A stretch of DNA of 23,391 nt, from positions 1-23,391 of the IMG/VR virus record IMGVR_UViG_3300020474_000120; one strand, given 5' to 3'. A program made the translations under genes and the position numbers. The stretch's first letter is position 1. Every line of letters begins with the position of its first letter. Of the stretch, positions 1,044-18,732 are shown one piece after another. The notes beneath the pieces are model-generated. The model saw only the letters and a program-made list of their open reading frames with translations. It ran no database searches and was not told the DNA's origin. The stretch comes from a virus.

Positions 1044-2189
1044 TTAATTAAGGTTAATCTGTGTACCACTGATGGTCATAACTCCTCCTGCTAGAATTGA
1101 CGCAATTCCTGATATGTTATGATTATATTGAGCACTACTTGTTACGTTATGAATACCAGTAATAGTTTGTGTATAAGTTCCTGAGTTTGTAAGAGTTGTA
1201 TTACCAGTAACAGTCTCGTTAAAAGTTCCTGAGTAGGTGGATGTATGATTTCCACTGATGGTTTTAGTTTGATTACCAGTTACAGTACTTGTATTATTAC
1301 CTGTAAGTGTACCAATAGTATTTCCAGTCACTCCATATGTTAAGTTTCCTGCAGTTAATTGTACAAGAGAATTACCTGTTCCTACAGTAAATGAAAATGC
1401 ATTAGGAGATTTTGCTGTTGGAATTGGTTTTGCTGGTAAACCTGCAACAAAAACTTCTGCTCTAGCTAAAAGGTTAGCTGATAGATCTCCACCAGCAGTG
1501 ATATTCATTGATCCAGATGAAATAATATTAAATGATGCTCTAGGATCTAACAACTGTCTGATAGTATACTCACCAAAAACAGTTTGTGTAACTGCACCTG
1601 TAACGTTATTATTAATAAAGGTTGTATCTGTTTTAAAAGTATTACCTATGACCTCAACAGAACCACCTGCACCGCTACCGCCCTGTATAAGGACTTTACT
1701 TCCTTTTAGGTGTAATTCTGTGTCTGCAGTTACGTTGACGTTGTTGCCCTTCATATGGACGTCTCCACCCACTGCCTCCATATTGATATCACCAAAGACT
1801 TTTAGACTCAGTGGTTTCTCTTCATCTTGTTTATTTTCTACCTCAATACTTAAAGTATCACCAACTTTAACAATCATCTGTCCATGAGGACGAACAGTCA
1901 TTCCACCACCACTCTCATCATCACCAATCTTTCCACATCCAAGGAAAATATTTCCCATCTCATCCATGTTTAGAGATTGACCGTTATCTGTGCAAACAAT
2001 ATAGGTTACTCTACCATCTTCATTCTGTGCTTTCATCTCTTTAACACCATTCAACTTATTAGCTGAAGATGTTCTTTGAGTTCCAGAATGAGGAGGTGTT
2101 GGGATCGTTTCATTTAAACCCTCTCCCGTAGGCAGACCGTCATTGGATACCTGCTTAAAATATTCTCCTATAGATTTAGATTTACTCAT
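1044..2189 (-). CDS. Baseplate spike beta-helix protein (gp5 C-terminal-like)
   Basis: The protein has 381 residues from the ATG at 2189. A TTG slightly upstream is also possible, but the ATG forms an ATGA overlap with the preceding stop and is preferred. The N-terminal ~200 residues contain strand-rich segments (SLKVFGDINMEAVGGDVHMK, VNVTADTELHLKGSKVLI) like VgrG/gp5 spike proteins. The last ~90 residues are a run of short repeats of the form TxTGNxTxT (TGNNTSTVTGNQTKTISGNHT), as expected of the trimeric beta-helix that forms the membrane-piercing needle of T4 gp5. It follows the gp5 OB-fold gene, so the spike looks split over two polypeptides. The role is inferred from repeat pattern and context. 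Confidence 0.7.
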   Translation of the reverse strand: MSKSKSIGEYFKQVSNDGLPTGEGLNETIPTPPHSGTQRTSSANKLNGVKEMKAQNEDGRVTYIVCTDNGQSLNMDEMGNIFLGCGKIGDDESGGGMTVRPHGQMIVKVGDTLSIEVENKQDEEKPLSLKVFGDINMEAVGGDVHMKGNNVNVTADTELHLKGSKVLIQGGSGAGGSVEVIGNTFKTDTTFINNNVTGAVTQTVFGEYTIRQLLDPRASFNIISSGSMNITAGGDLSANLLARAEVFVAGLPAKPIPTAKSPNAFSFTVGTGNSLVQLTAGNLTYGVTGNTIGTLTGNNTSTVTGNQTKTISGNHTSTYSGTFNETVTGNTTLTNSGTYTQTITGIHNVTSSAQYNHNISGIASILAGGVMTISGTQINLN

Positions 2190-5041
2190 GATGGGCAATC
2201 AACATAACGTCCAGTTCCGACCTTCGCATAACCGAGAAGATCTCGTGTCTCACTATCTAGACATGCTAGTGAAGCAAGAGCATTTGCTCCAAAACCACCA
2301 CCACCAATAATATCAACGGTAGGAGCAGTATCATAAATTGTACTTCTATCAATCACATCAAAACCTATTACAAATCCAGCAGTATTAATTCTAGCAACAA
2401 CCTTATCAGACTCACCATTGATAAACACTCTAGGAACACTTGTATAACCAGATCCAGGTCTAGTTAAAGTTAGAGAGTCTAACACACAGTTTACAGTTTC
2501 TGGTCTATTAGGAACAAAGTTTCTTCCTCTCTGTGTGATACGAATTTCAGTAACATATCCATTATTATCAAGAAGAGGAATACCCATAGCACCCCATCCT
2601 TGACCAGTGATAGCAAGATTTGGTGGTAAGAGATATGGGTCACCTGGATTATCAATAGGAATCTCAATAATCTTTCCATTATTATCAACAATAGGTGAAC
2701 CAATAGTAGGTTCTTTAAATTGTGGAGTTGACTGGGAAACTGTTGCGATAGGTGTAGACTCTTCCTGTCCTAGAATTACAACATCAGCAAATGCTCCAGT
2801 TCCATTAATGCTAAATTTCATATCTTCTGGACCTTCAATATTAGCATCTTCTGCAATTCCAACAACCACTGCAGATATATTTTCTTGAATCATAAATGTT
2901 CCATATAAATTTCCACCGATGATATCACTCTCAGAAATATTAGTACCAAATAAAGTATAACCCATAATTGTATTATTTGGAATACCCTCACTAGTAATAC
3001 TATATGTGATGAACTCGCCTTCCTGATAGTTTGTTCTATCTGCTGTTACTTCAATACTATACTGAGTAAAGTTTAATTCTGTAGGTACTGTAGGTGTAAC
3101 AGGATCTGGGTCTTCTGTTTGTGCTAGAAGTTGGTTAACTAGATTTTGAGGAGGATTTTGTGCAGGTGCAGCAACTGTAGTGCTAAGAGCAGGTGGTAAA
3201 AATGGACTTCCTTGTGATGGACTAGACGCTGGTGCTACACCGATAGTAACAACAGCAATATTAGAGATAAAATTAGCAACAGGAAGACCAGTAGAATAAT
3301 CAATTCTTACACTAAAATCTTGAGGTGTATCATTTATAGTATCTTTATAAGTCTGAACTGTAATGAATCTTTCTGTTTGATTAGGTCCGAATCCTAATAT
3401 ACCATCGTTTGCGATGTAATCAGTTCCTGCTTTAGCACTACCATCTTGAGTTTTAAATTCAATAGAACTGGATACAGAGGTAAAACCACTTCTTCTAACT
3501 CTAATTGTTGCTAGATCTCCTTCAAGGACATTAGTATCTTCAATTTCATATGTAATAACTTTAGTAGATACATCTTGATCACCACCAGAAGGAAGAGTTC
3601 CTGCACCACCCTCAGGGTTACCACCGTAGATAGGTGAGTTTGCACCACCTACAGGTAAAGCAGGGAGACCACCAAAGAAAAATCCACCAGTTAACTCAGG
3701 AGTATCATAGTCTCTAGCATCTTTACAAATACTTTGTCCATAGTCTAAAGGACCATCTTCGATTGCTTTAAGTAAATCATCTAAGAAATTATCCTCATCT
3801 TTCTTTTCCTTTTTACTACATCTCTTATCAGTATCACCACACTTAGAATCAATACCACCACAAGAAATACCAAGAAGTCTCATGATTTTAAACATAGCAC
3901 CACCAACCAGATTCAATGCACCAGATGCAATACTAATGATTGCTTGAAGAGGACCTAGTACAGCATCAAGAAGGTTTGAAACAAGGCTAACAATCTTATT
4001 GATGATTGCATTTACAAAGATATCAACTTGACATGTTGCTGCTCTGAATACTTTAAGTAGATAGTCAAATATCAAAGAGGTAACAAAATCTACAAGTCTT
4101 TCATAAATGTCTTCAATACTACAACCAATCTTTTCTAGAGCATTTTCAAGGAATTTTTGAACTCCATCTAAAATGCCTGCAAATGGCGTTAAAATAAGTT
4201 TTACAAGTTTTTCAATACCTTTTTTCAATGCAGCAATAATCTCACCCTTAACTCTTGCTAGGGCAGATCTAATAATACGTAAGACTTTATTGATATATCC
4301 TTGTGCTTTATTAGCATAACTCATAATCTCACCATTGACTCCACTGGTAAGATAGTCTCCCAAGTTTCCTCGACTGTCCTGCACCATCTTGAATAAATCT
4401 GCTAGGACATATTTTAGTGACTTTTTAGTGTCGTCATTACATTCAGCATTAGCAGTAGCTACACATACTTTACTACCGAATGAATTAGTTACGCTATTCT
4501 CTCCAGAATGTTGTCCATCTGCGACACTAAATGTTGTTTCAGATCCACCAGCAATTTGTCCTGATCCTTTGTTTGGATTTTCTTTGTCGTTTGCTGGTTG
4601 ATCAGTAACATTATTAGTTCTTTTATTAACTTGCTGTTGAAAAGCTAAGCATTTTTCGTCAGTATCATCCTGTATTTTCTCTGGTGGTGTTTCTTTAGAT
4701 CTTGCAACAGTACCAATAGATGCAAGAATTAAAGGTATATTATTATCACCATCTAACCAAGCACCAAACACCCAATCACCTTCTTCTAGGTTAGCAGTAG
4801 CACCACTAACTCCACCATTTTTATATGGTATTGTTACTGGTAATGCAGAATGTGCCCATGGTAAATCTTTAGTAGGAACAGATTTACAATCTGAACTATG
4901 AACCGAAACTATTCTAACTCTAAATCTATTTGACTGCTTTGGTTCATCTATTTCTTCTACTTGCCCAATCCAAAACCCTCCACCATCCTGTCCAATTTGG
5001 TGGATCGGTAAAAGAGAATTAATGGTTGGATCAGTAGACAT
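2186..5041 (-). CDS. 5: Baseplate hub gp5-like protein with OB-fold and Calx-beta domains
   Basis: The protein has 951 residues. Residues ~18-110 (GFWIGQVEEIDEP through LEEGDWVFGAWLDGDNNIPL) match the N-terminal OB-fold of gp5/VgrG spikes, which docks on the gp27-type hub. Residues ~200-410 are helical and hydrophobic with scattered cysteines. About 495-600 (DTNVLEGDLATIRVRRSG ... DGSAKAGTDYI) is a Calx-beta domain, and a second related beta domain follows (~665-775). The C-terminus has a repeated GY..xPxVxIxGGGxGA pattern (for example PGSGYTSVPRVFI, APTVDIIGGGGFGANA), known from phage tail proteins. No lysozyme domain, present in T4 gp5, is visible. The large insertions may be surface adhesion or structural modules. 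Confidence 0.75.
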   Translation of the reverse strand: MSTDPTINSLLPIHQIGQDGGGFWIGQVEEIDEPKQSNRFRVRIVSVHSSDCKSVPTKDLPWAHSALPVTIPYKNGGVSGATANLEEGDWVFGAWLDGDNNIPLILASIGTVARSKETPPEKIQDDTDEKCLAFQQQVNKRTNNVTDQPANDKENPNKGSGQIAGGSETTFSVADGQHSGENSVTNSFGSKVCVATANAECNDDTKKSLKYVLADLFKMVQDSRGNLGDYLTSGVNGEIMSYANKAQGYINKVLRIIRSALARVKGEIIAALKKGIEKLVKLILTPFAGILDGVQKFLENALEKIGCSIEDIYERLVDFVTSLIFDYLLKVFRAATCQVDIFVNAIINKIVSLVSNLLDAVLGPLQAIISIASGALNLVGGAMFKIMRLLGISCGGIDSKCGDTDKRCSKKEKKDEDNFLDDLLKAIEDGPLDYGQSICKDARDYDTPELTGGFFFGGLPALPVGGANSPIYGGNPEGGAGTLPSGGDQDVSTKVITYEIEDTNVLEGDLATIRVRRSGFTSVSSSIEFKTQDGSAKAGTDYIANDGILGFGPNQTERFITVQTYKDTINDTPQDFSVRIDYSTGLPVANFISNIAVVTIGVAPASSPSQGSPFLPPALSTTVAAPAQNPPQNLVNQLLAQTEDPDPVTPTVPTELNFTQYSIEVTADRTNYQEGEFITYSITSEGIPNNTIMGYTLFGTNISESDIIGGNLYGTFMIQENISAVVVGIAEDANIEGPEDMKFSINGTGAFADVVILGQEESTPIATVSQSTPQFKEPTIGSPIVDNNGKIIEIPIDNPGDPYLLPPNLAITGQGWGAMGIPLLDNNGYVTEIRITQRGRNFVPNRPETVNCVLDSLTLTRPGSGYTSVPRVFINGESDKVVARINTAGFVIGFDVIDRSTIYDTAPTVDIIGGGGFGANALASLACLDSETRDLLGYAKVGTGRYVDCPS

Positions 5042-5286: not shown

Positions 5287-6660
5287 TTAAGTTTCTAATA
5301 TTCCATATGAATCTCTCCTAAGAGATAACATGGTTGTGACTCTTTTCTCGATTTTATTATAAAACCTTGAAAGAGAGGTTATAAGATAAAATCCACTGTG
5401 ATCTTGATCGACAGATTCTATTTCTCTATCTTTTTCAGTGGACATATTTTGCAGTTGTACTTTGATAACATCACCAACTACTAACTGCAAATTACCAGGG
5501 ACTACTACACGCAACCCTTGAGTATTTAGGAGATAATTCCTAGATATTGCTTGCGGGAGCGTCTCTGGGGTACGATCTTTAAAAGCTAAATCATTTGCCG
5601 CTGGATCTTGACCACTATAATATGATTCATCGTCTAGTATAGCAGAAACAATTCTAGTTGGACGTTTTGCAAGAGATTGCTGACCTGGAGTTAGATACTC
5701 TTGTGATCCTAAATGTGCTAATTTATTCCAAGATTTATTAGCAGAATAAGTTGATTCATCATATTCTCCTGTAGAAAAGTTATAATACTGACATCGTAAC
5801 GCATATGCACCAGTTCTAAGTCCCTGCATCAAATTAATCTCAGATGTAAACTGAACATCAAGTAAAGTTGCATCTGTTTCTACACCAGCAGAGTCTTGAA
5901 AAGTTTTAATAAAACTCTTTTGACCTGCATTATTAAGACCTAATTTATTTTTAACATCCATCAAGGAGTCAATTGATCTAAAATTATACCCTTTAGCAGA
6001 TTCATAGAAAAAGAATCCAGCAGTTCCTTCAGAATACTTTCCATCAACAGTTTCAGCACCTTCACCATCACCCTTTCCACCTGCTCCAGTTGGAATAGAT
6101 TGATCTTGTAATTTAGCACATATAGCAAAAGGAGTTAAATTTTTAGGTATGATAGTTTTGTAATTATCACAAGGATCCATATTACTTTCATAATCTTTAG
6201 CAGTGTTAAGACCCTCTTCACCTAAAACTTTTTTAACAATCTGATCTGGTTTACCAGATAATGTTTTCTTTATTCTAGTTTGTGGATCATCAAGTGCTTC
6301 TGCAGAAATCAAACCTAGATTATAGTTTTGTATCTTACCAGAATTGATTCTATCTCCAACTCTATAAACTTTAAATGCGTAACTATAATCATTATTATCT
6401 GGTCCTTCTACATCAATCTCAACCAACTCACCACCAGTAATAGGACCAGATCCACTCCCAATTAAATTTTTACCACTATCATTAATATTCAAGTTAGCAC
6501 TAATAAATGGTTTAGAAATATCTTCATAATAAGTAAAACCAAACACAAGATCACCTATTTCTACTGGGGCTTTCTTTGCATATGGTCCCTGTAGCATAGA
6601 GATTCTAATGCTTTTAAAAATATATGTCGCAGGATTAGTATTATTTTCAGCAAGAGACAT
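5287..6660 (-). CDS. Baseplate hub protein, gp27-like
   Basis: The 457-residue protein lies directly between the tape-measure-like gene and the gp5 OB-fold protein, where a hub subunit that seats the spike is expected. The N-terminus (IRISMLQGPYAKKAPVEIGD, then YAFKVYRVGDRINSG and YNLGLISAEAL) has the strand pattern of gp27/gpD-type hub domains. In those domains tube-like beta domains alternate with a connecting segment that binds helices. The C-terminal third includes LRVVVPGNLQLVVGDVIKVQ and FYLITSLSRFYNKIEK, typical of the last hub domain. T4 gp27 is 391 residues. It begins with a TAATG overlap with the upstream stop. The assignment rests on pattern and gene order. Confidence 0.6.
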   Translation of the reverse strand: MSLAENNTNPATYIFKSIRISMLQGPYAKKAPVEIGDLVFGFTYYEDISKPFISANLNINDSGKNLIGSGSGPITGGELVEIDVEGPDNNDYSYAFKVYRVGDRINSGKIQNYNLGLISAEALDDPQTRIKKTLSGKPDQIVKKVLGEEGLNTAKDYESNMDPCDNYKTIIPKNLTPFAICAKLQDQSIPTGAGGKGDGEGAETVDGKYSEGTAGFFFYESAKGYNFRSIDSLMDVKNKLGLNNAGQKSFIKTFQDSAGVETDATLLDVQFTSEINLMQGLRTGAYALRCQYYNFSTGEYDESTYSANKSWNKLAHLGSQEYLTPGQQSLAKRPTRIVSAILDDESYYSGQDPAANDLAFKDRTPETLPQAISRNYLLNTQGLRVVVPGNLQLVVGDVIKVQLQNMSTEKDREIESVDQDHSGFYLITSLSRFYNKIEKRVTTMLSLRRDSYGILET

Positions 6661-9365
6661 TAAGCGGTACCTAATCTACTGAGATGAAGTGGAGCATATA
6701 CTGATGCAAATGGATCTGTCTGTGGTTGCATAAAAGTGCTACCACCCATTGATTCTCCTTTATCAGAACCACCACTACCTGAAAATCCAGATTTACTTGT
6801 AATAGTCTGTAAGGCACCCATTAATTGTTGCTGTCCTTGTGCAAGAAGAAGTGCTTCTTGACTTAACTGTCCATTATTAATATTAGGCATAAACAAAGAT
6901 CCAACTGTCTGGGGTGCTTCTATATTATTACTTGTATTATCTGTTGGAGGAGTTATATTTGTAGATTGATTTAGTGTCTTGGAACTATTCTTAGTAAACT
7001 CTAGAGGATCTACAGCAGATGATAGTCCATCATATCCACCAGGGTGTCTTTCTAAGTGTAGGTGTGTGTTATCAGCAGCCATATCACCTGTACCTGGCCA
7101 ATACTTCACCTTAGCAATTGTTTCACCCTTGCTAACCTCTTGTCCTTTCTCTACTGTTGGATCAACATGACCATATAGAGTTGCATCTCCTGCATCACTG
7201 GTTACAACAACAGCAGATCCGTGCATAAAATCAGGAATAACAGAAGTTACAGTACCATCTTCCATAGCAGTAACAGGAGATCCTCTATCAACACCTATAT
7301 CAATTCCTTTATGATCTTGAGATCCATATGATAAATTTCTAGGACCAAATTTACTTGTGAGCACTGGTCTTCCTTGTGGTAAGACTGCAGAATAATCAGT
7401 ATCTTCTCTCTGTCCTGTAAACATTTGTGCGACTTGTTTAGCACCACTCTTTGCACCACTCATTAGGTCACCAAAAAGTCCTCCAGCGTTAGCAGGAGCA
7501 CCAGTAAGTAAGTTACCAATACCAGTGTTTACACCACCTAGACTTAGATTAGTTAATCCAGATGCTTTTACTAATTTTCCTAGATTAGGACCAACTGCAG
7601 ACTTTAAGAATTGTCCCATAGGACCTAAAGTACCAAGAACTTGGTTAATTGCTGCAGCAATACCACCAATAGCAAATTGGAAAGGCATTTGTAATGCATC
7701 AGTCATATGCTGACCCATTTCATTAACAAGTTGTCTTCCTCCAAATGGAGTGAAGGTTACGACCTCACCACTTGCTTCACCACCTTGGAATGCTCCTATA
7801 TTAGTAGGATTGTCTAAGAAGTACGATCCACCACTAGCATTTTTAACTTCTCCTGTTTCTACACCTTTACTTTCTAATAAAGTTTTGTTAGCGTTCTCAA
7901 CATTTTCATCACCATACGCTCTCCACGTACCCCATCCTCCGACTTCATCAGGAACAACACCCAAGAAATCAATCGCATTCAAGAATTTTCTACCAGACTC
8001 ACGTATATTGGCGTCAATAATAGCCATGGCTTTATTAGACTGATCAAAATTTCCAGTCCTGATGAGTGAGTTAATACCTTCAAACAAACCACGGAAAGGA
8101 GCTCCTATTATCTCCATTCCACTAGACAAACCAGCAGTAATATCTGCAATACCATTCCTCATCGCATTTTCTCCATCACCACGAATCCAATCATCAACAC
8201 CACGAGTCCACTCACCAACATATCCCACTAACGTACCTACACTTAAAACTGTTGCTACACTTGATAGTCCTGCTGCAAGCATTCCTGCAGTACCAGTTGC
8301 ACCACCAATAATTGCTGCATCAGCGCCAGAGTCAGCATAATCAAGCATAGCATTAGCATAATCACCAGTCATCAAGTTTATAGTTCCAGTAATGGAAGAT
8401 AAGAGAGGAATTGCATGAGCCGCTCCACTTCCTCTAACTACGGTATTAGCATTTTTAAGAGACTTTAAAGGATTCAGATTCTTTAAATTTAATGCACCAT
8501 CAAATGTATTTGAAATTTTATTTGTGACAGGAGTAATATTTTTAATTTTGCTGAGATCCTTAACACCATCAACTTTACTAGTAACTTTTCCTATATCAAC
8601 TACATCATCAACCTTACCTACTCCTTCAGGAATAGCTTCTTTAACTTTGTTGAGGTTTTTTACATCCACAACTTGTGAAGTACTCGGCATTAACTGATTT
8701 GCTGGTTTTACACTACTACTTTTGAGTAAATTCGGTTTAGGAGTAACATCAATCATTCTCCTATTAGGAAGAACATTTTTGTTACGTAAAACATTTGAAA
8801 GTAATCTGGTTAAACCTCTCGTTCCTACCGCAGCAGCAATTATTGCACCCCATTTAGCTATAGCAGCGATAACCCCACCAATATTACTAGCTAAAAACTT
8901 AATTAAATCTCCTAACCAAGTAGGTTTTTTGACTTTTTCTGAAGTTATAGTACCAGATAAGTCTTCTGTTTTTTCTAATTGTGTTTCTTGTTGATCAAAT
9001 TTACTAATAGCACCACTTGTACTTGCGGATAGAAGAAGTTGATTTTGTGCTTCTAGTAATTGATTAGTTTGTCTTTGCTCACCTAATTGTGCTTGTAGAA
9101 CTGCATCTTCACCATATTTGGTAATATCTGAACTGCCTGTAGTAGCAAGAGCAGAAGATCCAGACATCAACTGATTCACAGTTGTGCCTTCTACCAACAT
9201 TGATGATGTAGGAGTTGTTACGGAAACCGAGGCAGGTTGATTTGGAGCAGGGTCGTTACCGCCCTTACCGTCTCCATCATTCTTCTTTCTGTTTCTGAAG
9301 CGATCAATTATATTTTCAATAATACCTTGTTGAGCCGCTTCATATCCTTGGGTTCCTGACGCCAT
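6660..9365 (-). CDS. Tape-measure-like tail protein with M23 peptidase domain
   Basis: This 901-residue protein has a glutamine-rich, coiled-coil-prone N-terminus (~90-120), hydrophobic stretches near residues 155-180 (ASNIGGVIAAIAKWGAIIAA) and 350-385, and Gly/Ser/Ala-rich middle parts. It follows the gp26 frameshift pair, the standard position of a tape-measure gene. Residues ~665-785 are a M23/LytM metallopeptidase domain: DHKGIDIG (zinc His ~685 and Asp), a second conserved His in LYGHVDP, and the HLH motif (~768-770). The HxxxD and HxH zinc ligands are intact, so peptidoglycan endopeptidase activity is likely. It could open the cell wall during injection. The C-terminus is Gln-rich. The start overlaps the previous stop (TAATG). 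Confidence 0.7.
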   Translation of the reverse strand: MASGTQGYEAAQQGIIENIIDRFRNRKKNDGDGKGGNDPAPNQPASVSVTTPTSSMLVEGTTVNQLMSGSSALATTGSSDITKYGEDAVLQAQLGEQRQTNQLLEAQNQLLLSASTSGAISKFDQQETQLEKTEDLSGTITSEKVKKPTWLGDLIKFLASNIGGVIAAIAKWGAIIAAAVGTRGLTRLLSNVLRNKNVLPNRRMIDVTPKPNLLKSSSVKPANQLMPSTSQVVDVKNLNKVKEAIPEGVGKVDDVVDIGKVTSKVDGVKDLSKIKNITPVTNKISNTFDGALNLKNLNPLKSLKNANTVVRGSGAAHAIPLLSSITGTINLMTGDYANAMLDYADSGADAAIIGGATGTAGMLAAGLSSVATVLSVGTLVGYVGEWTRGVDDWIRGDGENAMRNGIADITAGLSSGMEIIGAPFRGLFEGINSLIRTGNFDQSNKAMAIIDANIRESGRKFLNAIDFLGVVPDEVGGWGTWRAYGDENVENANKTLLESKGVETGEVKNASGGSYFLDNPTNIGAFQGGEASGEVVTFTPFGGRQLVNEMGQHMTDALQMPFQFAIGGIAAAINQVLGTLGPMGQFLKSAVGPNLGKLVKASGLTNLSLGGVNTGIGNLLTGAPANAGGLFGDLMSGAKSGAKQVAQMFTGQREDTDYSAVLPQGRPVLTSKFGPRNLSYGSQDHKGIDIGVDRGSPVTAMEDGTVTSVIPDFMHGSAVVVTSDAGDATLYGHVDPTVEKGQEVSKGETIAKVKYWPGTGDMAADNTHLHLERHPGGYDGLSSAVDPLEFTKNSSKTLNQSTNITPPTDNTSNNIEAPQTVGSLFMPNINNGQLSQEALLLAQGQQQLMGALQTITSKSGFSGSGGSDKGESMGGSTFMQPQTDPFASVYAPLHLSRLGTA

Positions 9366-9541
9366 TATCGGTTGTTTTGTTGTTTTAGTTCCTCAAGATG
9401 CTGAGACAGAAGTGCAACGTATACAATTCTTTCCCAAGGCATCATATTATCTAGCTCAGTCAAAGAGTATTTATGATGATGCATCAAAGCAAAGTTAGTT
9501 TGAAAGTACTCCTCCAAGTTAGTATGAAAGAGTGCTATGCG
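9365..9541 (-). CDS. gp26 -1 frameshift extension (tail assembly chaperone, gp51-like)
   Basis: These are 58 codons in the -1 frame relative to gp26, ending in LLSQHLEELKQQNNR with the stop overlapping the next ATG (TAATG). The frame opens at 9571 with no ATG until residue 20 of the extension (MHHHKYSLTELDNMMPWERI) and no Shine-Dalgarno site. A normal start would therefore lose the conserved-looking front part (RIALFHTNLEEYFQTNF). Slippage at T TTT TTC (9547-9541) would fuse it to residue 236 of gp26, giving a 294-residue product. In tailed phages the two overlapping frames before the tape-measure gene encode tail assembly chaperones made this way (lambda G and GT). In cyanophage genomes the ORF here is, as I recall, usually labelled gp51. 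Confidence 0.65.
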   Translation of the reverse strand, partial: RIALFHTNLEEYFQTNFALMHHHKYSLTELDNMMPWERIVYVALLSQHLEELKQQNNR

Positions 9542-10248
9542 AAAAAACTCTGTAGCCCCGAAATAGTATACTCACTCTCTTTTTTAGTTTTTGGATTCTT
9601 AACTTTAAAAGTATGCTGTAATTTAGGCATAGTCTCAAAGAACTTTGCAAATTTATCAAATTGTTCTTGAGTCATGCTCTCAATAAAGTTTGCAAGTTCC
9701 TTTTTACTACAATCTTTTGACTCAGTTACATCTTCACCCTCAAAAATTTGATCAATACAGGTAGTAATAAAGTCTAGTCCGTCCACATCATCACCCTTAT
9801 CATTCAACCCAGTGTTAATAAAGTGTTCAATGCTTGGATACTTCATGATTACACCGACCTTATCGGTAATCATAATTTTAGGATCATGTCCCTTTGGTTT
9901 AAATACTTGAACATCAGAAATATTGATTTCATGTGAGACCTGAGTCTTATTATCATCTAAGCATGTAACATTTAATGTTACAATCTCTCCAACAGATGCT
10001 GCACGGATCTTTAGAAAAAGATATTCTAGATCAAAACTAGGAAGACTCGCAGGTTTTATACCACGAGTAAGAATACAGGCACTGAGAGTATCAATAACTG
10101 ATTGAGTAATTTGTTTTTCGTCTTTTGAGTCCATAGCAATAAGAAGAATCTTTTCTTCTTTTACTAAAAATGGACGATATTTTATTTTTTTACCGCTCGA
10201 TGGTAGTTCCAATTCATAGGTTGGTGCGGTAACCTTTGGTAATGCCAT
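9535..10248 (-). CDS. 26: Baseplate hub subunit gp26 / tail assembly chaperone
   Basis: The 237-residue protein starts MALPKVTAPTYELELPSSGK. The sequence resembles the T4 baseplate protein family that includes gp26 (PF12322): KKIKYRPFLVKEEKILLIAM, a central LEYLFLKIRAASVGEIV, and a helical C-terminus (EQFDKFAKFFETMPKLQHTF). In T4, gp26 acts in hub assembly and is cytoplasmic or a minor structural protein. The last codons AGT TTT TTC GCA TAG contain a perfect slippery heptamer that leads into a longer form (see the extension). The upstream gene ends 24 nt before the start. Confidence 0.8.
   Translation of the reverse strand: MALPKVTAPTYELELPSSGKKIKYRPFLVKEEKILLIAMDSKDEKQITQSVIDTLSACILTRGIKPASLPSFDLEYLFLKIRAASVGEIVTLNVTCLDDNKTQVSHEINISDVQVFKPKGHDPKIMITDKVGVIMKYPSIEHFINTGLNDKGDDVDGLDFITTCIDQIFEGEDVTESKDCSKKELANFIESMTQEQFDKFAKFFETMPKLQHTFKVKNPKTKKESEYTISGLQSFFA
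9541..9547 (-). promoter_or_regulatory. Programmed -1 ribosomal frameshift site (T TTT TTC)
   Basis: The minus strand has T TTT TTC in the gp26 reading frame (codons 234-236: AGT TTT TTC). This X XXY YYZ heptamer lets both tRNAs re-pair after a one-base backward slip. The zero-frame stop TAG is one codon further on. The -1 frame then continues for 58 codons to the tape-measure start. Confidence 0.7.
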
Positions 10249-10272: not shown

Positions 10273-10971
10273 TTAGCCTGAAAAAAGCATGTCTCTTCCT
10301 TGATCATTATACGCTACTCTGTGTTTTGAGTAATAAAAATTAGCAGTACACTTTACAAGTTGACTACTTCCAAATGAAAGTGGAATTGCTTCTACTGCAT
10401 AAGGAAACACTTCTTGTAATACATGAACTGTAGAAACTCTACTAGTTTCACCTTTAGGACCTTTCTCTGCTTTAGCAATTCTAACTGTACAATGGTAATT
10501 TTCTGGAAATTGTAGTCTAGTAGTTCTATTATTATCAAACTTTGATGCCGACATTGCTTTTTCTTCACTTGCGCCTATATCAAGATTTTGTACTGTGTCG
10601 ATTTTACTACCATCAGCATTAAATTCTTGGAAAATATACTGATACCAAGTATTCATAAACTTGAAAGGACTCATATTAGCATCACACATCCAACCGAGTT
10701 GAAAATCAGTAAACATTTTTTGATGAACATAGTTTGTAACACCTTCACCCATAAATCTTCCAGTCATTTGTCCAGTAGCAGCCTGTGCTCCAGGAAGAGT
10801 TACCTCATCTACGAATTGTTCATGAAAATTAAATCCAGTGTAGAATTTTTGCTGCTCTAGTTTACTTTTAACTCCATCATCTTTATCGAAGTCAAACTTC
10901 ACACGAAATCCAGTGGTGAGCGCCATGCCCCCACCTCTCGCTATGTTTGACATTAAATCTCTATATGACAC
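10273..10971 (-). CDS. Tail-tube-fold baseplate protein (gp19/gp54-like)
   Basis: This is a 232-residue protein, the first gene of the minus-strand baseplate operon. The order of elements resembles tube-fold proteins (gp19, gp48, gp54): HEQFVDEVTLPGAQAATGQM, then TNYVHQKMFTDFQLGWMCDA and SPFKFMNTWYQYIF, then VLQEVFPYAVEAIPLSFGSS near the end. In these proteins a loop such as LPG is followed by strands, a helix with W, and closing strands. It probably initiates or caps the tail tube on the baseplate. The listed start is GTG (SYRDLMSNIARGG). An ATG at 10953 (MSNIARGGG) has an AGAGA at a suitable distance and would remove six residues. The exact T4 equivalent is uncertain. Confidence 0.6.
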   Translation of the reverse strand: MSYRDLMSNIARGGGMALTTGFRVKFDFDKDDGVKSKLEQQKFYTGFNFHEQFVDEVTLPGAQAATGQMTGRFMGEGVTNYVHQKMFTDFQLGWMCDANMSPFKFMNTWYQYIFQEFNADGSKIDTVQNLDIGASEEKAMSASKFDNNRTTRLQFPENYHCTVRIAKAEKGPKGETSRVSTVHVLQEVFPYAVEAIPLSFGSSQLVKCTANFYYSKHRVAYNDQGRDMLFSG

Positions 10972-18047: not shown

Positions 18048-18080
18048 TGCGGGAAATTTTTTTCCACTTTTATGGAATTG
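18048..18080 (+). repeat. 33-bp imperfect intergenic repeat, copy B
   Basis: It matches copy A (13781-13813) at 29 of 33 positions. On the minus strand it starts in the last codons and stop of thyX and runs into the leader of the oxygenase gene. The GGGAA...TTCC part can form a small hairpin followed by an A-rich stretch rather than a T-run, so it is not a normal terminator. Confidence 0.7.
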
Positions 18081-18732
18081 GGTTTTCGTTTTTCGGTATC
18101 CATTCTAGTGCTTCAGAAACGATAGGGAATTGTTCACAGAACACACGCTTTGCATCGTTAGCAATGTCCATGTGTTCTTTTTGTGTACCATGAGCAGAAC
18201 GCAATTCAATGTAGTGAATCCACGACCGAACAGATCCAGTCATGTAGATTCTAGTTGGTGTTGCTAGAGGTAGAACCATTCTAGCACACTCTTTCGCAAT
18301 TCCAACCCTCAACATTTGTTTATAGATATCCATCCCTTCAGTGAAGTAACGTTTGATAGCAATCTCAAGTTCTTGCTTAGTGAAAGGATCAACATCATCA
18401 ATAGAGTTCTGTCTGTTCTTATCATCTTGACGACGAAGATCAAACATAGGAATACTAGTCGCTAACATAGAACTATCAGCATAACGTTGTGAAAATTCCT
18501 GATAGGTAAACGAACGATGTCTTAAAATCTGTGCAGCAATTGCTCTTGTAGTTTCAATTTCCAAAGTCATGTGTGCCTGCTCAAAGACAGACCAATGTTG
18601 ATGCTTAATACAATAAGTTAACAGACCTGCAACCTTAGGATTTTCCTGATTGTTTGGGTTGCTTACCCTCGCTACATACCCCATCGTTTTCTCTGCGTTG
18701 GGAGTTACGGTTAGAAGTTTTACTGTATTCAT
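18070..18732 (-). CDS. thyX: FAD-dependent thymidylate synthase ThyX
   Basis: This 220-residue protein shows the ThyX signature RHRx7S (RHRSFTYQEFS, residues 71-81) followed by QRYAD. The N-terminal LLTVTPNAEKTMGYVARVS, HWSVFEQAHMTLEIETTRAI and the C-terminal RSWIHYIELRSAHGTQKEHM are family-typical. It makes dTMP from dUMP using methylene-tetrahydrofolate, FAD and NADPH, supplying thymidine for phage DNA. The start at ATG 18732 has AAGGA about 8 nt upstream. Its front overlaps the upstream gene by 98 nt, and its last codons lie in the 33-bp repeat. Confidence 0.95.
   Translation of the reverse strand: MNTVKLLTVTPNAEKTMGYVARVSNPNNQENPKVAGLLTYCIKHQHWSVFEQAHMTLEIETTRAIAAQILRHRSFTYQEFSQRYADSSMLATSIPMFDLRRQDDKNRQNSIDDVDPFTKQELEIAIKRYFTEGMDIYKQMLRVGIAKECARMVLPLATPTRIYMTGSVRSWIHYIELRSAHGTQKEHMDIANDAKRVFCEQFPIVSEALEWIPKNENPIP

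Follow-up and report, generated by a model that had tools for sequence, protein, structure and literature searches.

A slippery heptamer that probably joins gp26 and gp51 of T4-like cyanophages in a single, frameshifted tail assembly chaperone gene

In the lambda G/GT system the short form of the tail assembly chaperone coats the tape measure, and the long form recruits the tube subunits (PMC5009743). The lambda-type frameshift was described as conserved in long-tailed phages 'except T4' (PMC5009743). In T4 the role of hub assembly chaperone is given to gp26 and gp51, the latter being reported as required yet absent from the virion (PMC3004832). According to papers which cite the study of Vladimirov, Gautam and Davidson (2022, Virology 566:9-15), the genes of the short and long chaperones are separate in some T4-like phages (via PMC10885494), and T4-like phages have polyT slippery sequences in their TAC-N genes (via PMC12846349). 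In the Vandenendeviridae and Andersonviridae the TAC frameshift uses a GTTTTT motif (PMC12846349).

As the citing papers present it, the principle of frameshifted T4-like tail assembly chaperones appears to be already published, and since this 2022 paper on T4-like chaperones exists, our main claim is probably not new. Frameshift-made chaperones are familiar from other long-tailed phages, so that the cyanophage locus does not represent a new kind of system. A description of the gp26/gp51 frameshift in cyanophages was not found in the literature searched, in which the 2022 study is represented by its citing papers. The additions made here to the preliminary description of this DNA are the downstream hairpin and the encoding of the two forms as paralogous genes in T4.

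The DNA analysed, called the window below, is the whole 23,391-nucleotide stretch of the IMG/VR virus record IMGVR_UViG_3300020474_000120. On the basis of sequence comparisons, we are confident that the locus represents a single lambda G/GT-type tail assembly chaperone gene with a programmed -1 frameshift.

Layout of the gp26 locus

The gp26-type protein of the window matched PF12322 (T4_baseplate; E 4.6e-69, 232.9 bits against a cut-off of 24.5, profile positions 2-219 of 219) and, along its length, phrog_150 (E 4.7e-71). Direct reading of the minus strand gave CAG AGT TTT TTC GCA TAG as the 3' end of the gene, with the heptamer in the X_XXY_YYZ register of the gp26 frame. A slip of -1 at this site leads to the reading FFRIALFHTNLEEYF...QQNNR and to the stop TAA at 9367-9365, in overlap (TAATG) with the ATG of the 901-aa ORF. 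The preliminary description had placed T TTT TTC one codon ahead of the gp26 TAG, and had proposed that a -1 slip opens a 58-codon frame whose stop overlaps, as TAATG, the start of the gene it called the tape measure; both could be confirmed by reading, the former at 9547-9541 of the minus strand. It had also stated that no ATG precedes the conserved-looking N-terminal part of this frame, and that the product would have about 294 residues. Indeed, the first start-like codon was a TTG at 9517, and the predicted fusion has 236 + 58 = 294 residues.

Table 1. Features of the gp26 locus in the window
Feature	Position	Strand	Basis
Tail tube protein, upstream of gp26	10273..10971	-	PF23849, phrog_45
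gp26-type protein, zero-frame product, predicted chaperone short form, 237 aa, ATG start	9535..10248	-	PF12322, phrog_150
Slippery heptamer T_TTT_TTC, gp26 frame	9541..9547	-	direct reading
Zero-frame stop TAG, one codon past the heptamer	9535..9537	-	direct reading
Predicted stimulatory hairpin, main stem 9533-9525 with 9516-9508	9505..9536	-	folding energy, clade pairing
-1 frame extension ('gp51' / T-like domain), 58 codons + stop	9365..9541	-	phrog_634, hhalign
901-aa protein with M23 peptidase domain, probable tape-measure protein	6660..9365	-	PF01551, position

The upstream gene encodes the tail tube protein (PF23849 Phage_TTP_2, E 4.9e-45; phrog_45 tail tube, E 4.7e-26). The 901-aa protein downstream is probably the tape measure, as suggested by its position and by the weak matches of the same-position genes of ValKK3 and phiM12 to tape-measure profiles, its own match being to the M23 peptidase domain only (PF01551, E 2.7e-16). 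The order of tail tube, chaperone and tape-measure candidate corresponds to the V-G-T-H order of lambda.

Elsewhere in the window, a gp5-like baseplate hub protein with a Calx-beta domain (PF03160, E 1e-13) is encoded at 2186-5041. By eye, the small ORF at 217-573, with its signal-peptide-like start, resembles a secreted or outer-membrane protein, and the ORF at 18070-18732 appears ThyX thymidylate synthase-like by its RHRSFTYQEFSQRY motif.

Conservation of the heptamer and the downstream hairpin

In the approximately 6,600 codons of the window CDS 35 in-frame X_XXY_YYZ heptamers were counted, and TTTTTTC was found only at the end of gp26. The first sample of relatives consisted of 84 loci (80 IMG/VR contigs, S-PM2, P-SSM2, S-RSM4 and S-WAM2), in all of which the heptamer was invariant and ended one codon ahead of the gp26 stop. 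Distant phages were then added, namely phiM12, a Desulfovibrio phage, Vibrio ValKK3 and V07, Aeromonas avDM6 and AsFcp4, Stenotrophomonas Mendera, Methylophilales Melnitz, S-CRM01, P-HM2 and Ochrobactrum ORM20, together with further IMG/VR scans. The resulting set of 188 loci covers marine cyanophages as well as Methylophilales, rhizobial, Desulfovibrio, Vibrio, Aeromonas and Stenotrophomonas phages. T_TTT_TT[C/T] was present in the gp26 frame in 188 of 188 relatives outside the Ackermannviridae-like phages. Because of this, and because TTTTTTC is the single one of its kind among the 35 in-frame heptamers, the site is more than a chance occurrence. The zero-frame stop follows the heptamer directly in some loci and comes 2, 3 or 8 codons later in a few; even where it is 2-8 codons later, the position of the heptamer with respect to the protein is unchanged. 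The stop was 8 codons later in L149, L169 and L123, and 3 codons later in L161, L167 and L172.

The codon preceding the two Phe codons ended in T in all 88 non-redundant loci, whichever of the amino acids S, N, D, A, T or H it specified. The first Phe codon was TTT in 88 of 88, while elsewhere in gp26 66% of the Phe codons are TTT. The naive chances of these findings (1e-19 for the T-ending codon and 1e-16 for the TTT Phe) ignore relatedness and are indications only. As judged from this codon choice, the constraint acts on the DNA letters as well as on the protein.

The check proposed in the preliminary description, an alignment of the heptamer and frame relation across relatives, was carried out. 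Since the heptamer, the frame relation and the -1 ORF proved to be conserved together, even in very distant phages, the possible objection that the heptamer is lost in relatives which keep both frames does not refute the frameshift; the suggested programmed -1 joining of gp26 to the extension is thus supported by their common conservation.

The Ackermannviridae and Vibrio phage K469 (L092, L094, L095, L198-L212) keep the -1 ORF and lack the canonical heptamer, its replacements before the gp26 stop being ATT TTC, GTT TTC or CTT TTT; the K469 junction is TAATG. The presence of the -1 ORF without the canonical heptamer would therefore indicate a weaker slip site or another route in these phages.

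Downstream of the heptamer, after a spacer of 7 nt, the window can form the hairpin given in Table 1, with an MFE of -10.9 kcal/mol and a z of -2.14 against synonymous shuffles. The mean z of the 48 nt past the heptamer was -1.76 compared with synonymous-codon shuffles, versus -0.1 to -0.64 at nine other offsets. Many relatives have a hairpin 5-9 nt past the heptamer, its sequence differing by clade; in about a third of the sampled loci no clear hairpin was found in the 48 nt tested. A single global hairpin for all 88 loci was rejected, as the window register was only 62% paired and the stem register was clade-dependent; therefore the hairpin was tested clade by clade. In the clade of the window (22 sequences) the 11-pair structure was 96.7% paired, against 42-57% when slid, and in the P-SSM2-like clade (11 sequences) the hairpin was 91.7% paired, against 24-50%. 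The different registers, together with the 62% pairing across the 88 loci, thus suggest that the position of the hairpin is kept and its sequence turns over.

These data also bear on transcriptional slippage, in which the RNA polymerase would stutter on the six Ts and produce mRNAs in the -1 frame. The site is indeed homopolymeric and the run reaches 7-8 Ts in a few relatives, but slippage of this kind usually needs runs longer than six Ts. In most loci the C at the heptamer border ends the run, and a hairpin at ribosomal spacing is not expected from slippage, which we consider very improbable.

The -1 frame domain and its counterparts in T4

The -1 peptide matched phrog_634 (E 4.5e-26). When the profile of the -1 peptides was aligned by hhalign with the C-termini of T4-type gp51, the probability was 97.6% (E 2.7e-12); the control alignment with the gp26 C-termini gave 0.1%. 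On this profile evidence the -1 frame and the C-terminal part of T4 gp51 are homologous. It might be argued that the -1 ORF is a functionless, decaying remnant or a sequencing error, as it stands unannotated in several public records. This has hardly any probability at all, because the frame is open and conserved as protein (551 tblastn matches in several hundred records) across phages of very different hosts. Two other ways of reaching the downstream domain were rejected: readthrough of the TAG, because the gp51 domain occupies the -1 and not the gp26 frame, and the +1 frame, since in the examined loci of the frameshift type it stays open for only 7-82 nt beyond the stop.

The preliminary description gave the downstream ORF as labelled a separate gp51 in T4-like cyanophages, and this is correct for the GenBank records of S-PM2, P-SSM2 and S-RSM4. 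The -1 ORF is unannotated in ACG-2014j, S-MbCM25 and S-WAM2 (L213, L214 and L004), and in none of the cyanophage records examined are gp26 and gp51 joined as one gene. Most GenBank records, S-PM2, P-SSM2 and S-RSM4 among them, would agree with a separate gp51 gene that has its own start and is translated by reinitiation past the gp26 stop; the ATG found a few codons past the heptamer in some clades, and the junction of K469, would also suit such a gene. However, no ATG, GTG or TTG occurred among the initial 20 codons of the -1 frame in 24 of the 88 non-redundant loci, the invariant heptamer and its synonymous constraint would be left unexplained, and T4-type phages have this domain and a PF12322 domain fused in one ORF. 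A separate gene is accordingly a most unlikely explanation. Cyanophage gp26 and gp51 are very probably one gene, as far as can be judged from the sequences, and the locus is misannotated in GenBank.

T4 gp26 and T4 gp51 each match PF12322, and the phrog_634 part is also found on T4 gp51. By these matches the two T4 proteins are paralogs of the one cyanophage gene. Two PF12322 copies were counted in T4 and RB43, and one, with an overlapping -1 frame, in the 17 other phage records sampled. The heptamer was absent from the two-copy genes of T4, Acinetobacter, Krischvirus, Aeromonas 31, Proteus and RB43 phages. In the tree, the short and long copies of the two-copy phages were placed apart from the single-copy group, with weak deep branches. 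The recoding site and gene duplication would be alternative routes to the same protein pair, which is obtained either from one gene with the heptamer or from two genes without it.

Proposed mechanism and comparison with known systems

The AlphaFold2 model of gp26 had a pLDDT of 86. Its top fold match in the PDB was the HK97 tail assembly chaperone gp13 (2ob9), the chains of which ranked 1 and 16 with a TM-score of 0.52 over the target; the E value of 1.1 is not significant alone. The family-profile sequence search of the PDB gave nothing significant. The gene order, the listing of the T4 proteins as hub chaperones and the first rank of 2ob9 (at that E value) make the lambda mechanism the most likely one for the two products, by analogy.

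We infer the occurrence of the slip, its efficiency and what each product does as follows. Most ribosomes would read the gp26 frame to the TAG and make the 237-aa short form. A minority would move back by one base at T_TTT_TTC, where the hairpin about 7 nt downstream would assist them, and would produce the 294-aa form, which carries the gp51 domain as its last 58 residues. If lambda is a guide, the short form would coat the tape-measure protein, the extra domain of the long form would recruit the tail tube subunits, and both forms would leave after the recruiting step. T4 makes the same two forms from the paralogous genes 26 (short) and 51 (long).

The start of the tape-measure gene lay within -12 to +2 nt of the -1 frame stop in 54 of the 88 non-redundant loci, the window having TAATG. 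With the start on the -1 stop, it is mainly the slipped ribosomes that would be placed to reinitiate there. That the frameshift also governs the tape-measure gene is nevertheless a tentative and rather doubtful proposal. If true, one recoding event would tie the tape-measure output to the scarce long chaperone, and the T4 lineage would have lost this coupling with the duplication that gave rise to genes 26 and 51.

The hub assembly chaperones gp26 and gp51 would become the probable tail assembly chaperone of abundant marine phages, and two core genes, entered apart or half missing in the cyanophage records, would be merged. Compared with T4, the likeness is that gp26 and gp51 are PF12322 proteins and that gp51 holds, within one ORF with the PF12322 domain, the C-terminal domain that is here encoded in the -1 frame; the difference is that T4 has two separate genes, on opposite strands and without the slippery heptamer. 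The TAC genes of the Vandenendeviridae and Andersonviridae resemble this locus in their conserved -1 frameshift, in the T-rich site ahead of the tape measure and in the misannotation of the downstream ORF as a separate gene. They belong to other families, however, and their GTTTTT is nearer to the GTTTTC of the Ackermannviridae phage phiMAM1 than to T_TTT_TTC. The lambda G/GT system (Levin 1993; Xu 2004; PMC5009743) shares with the cyanophage locus the short form and the long form extended by a -1 frameshift, the slippery heptamer ending the short gene, and the location of this gene after the tail tube gene and before that of the tape measure, whereas the PF12322 protein, the T_TTT_TTC heptamer and the clade-specific hairpin distinguish the cyanophage locus from it.
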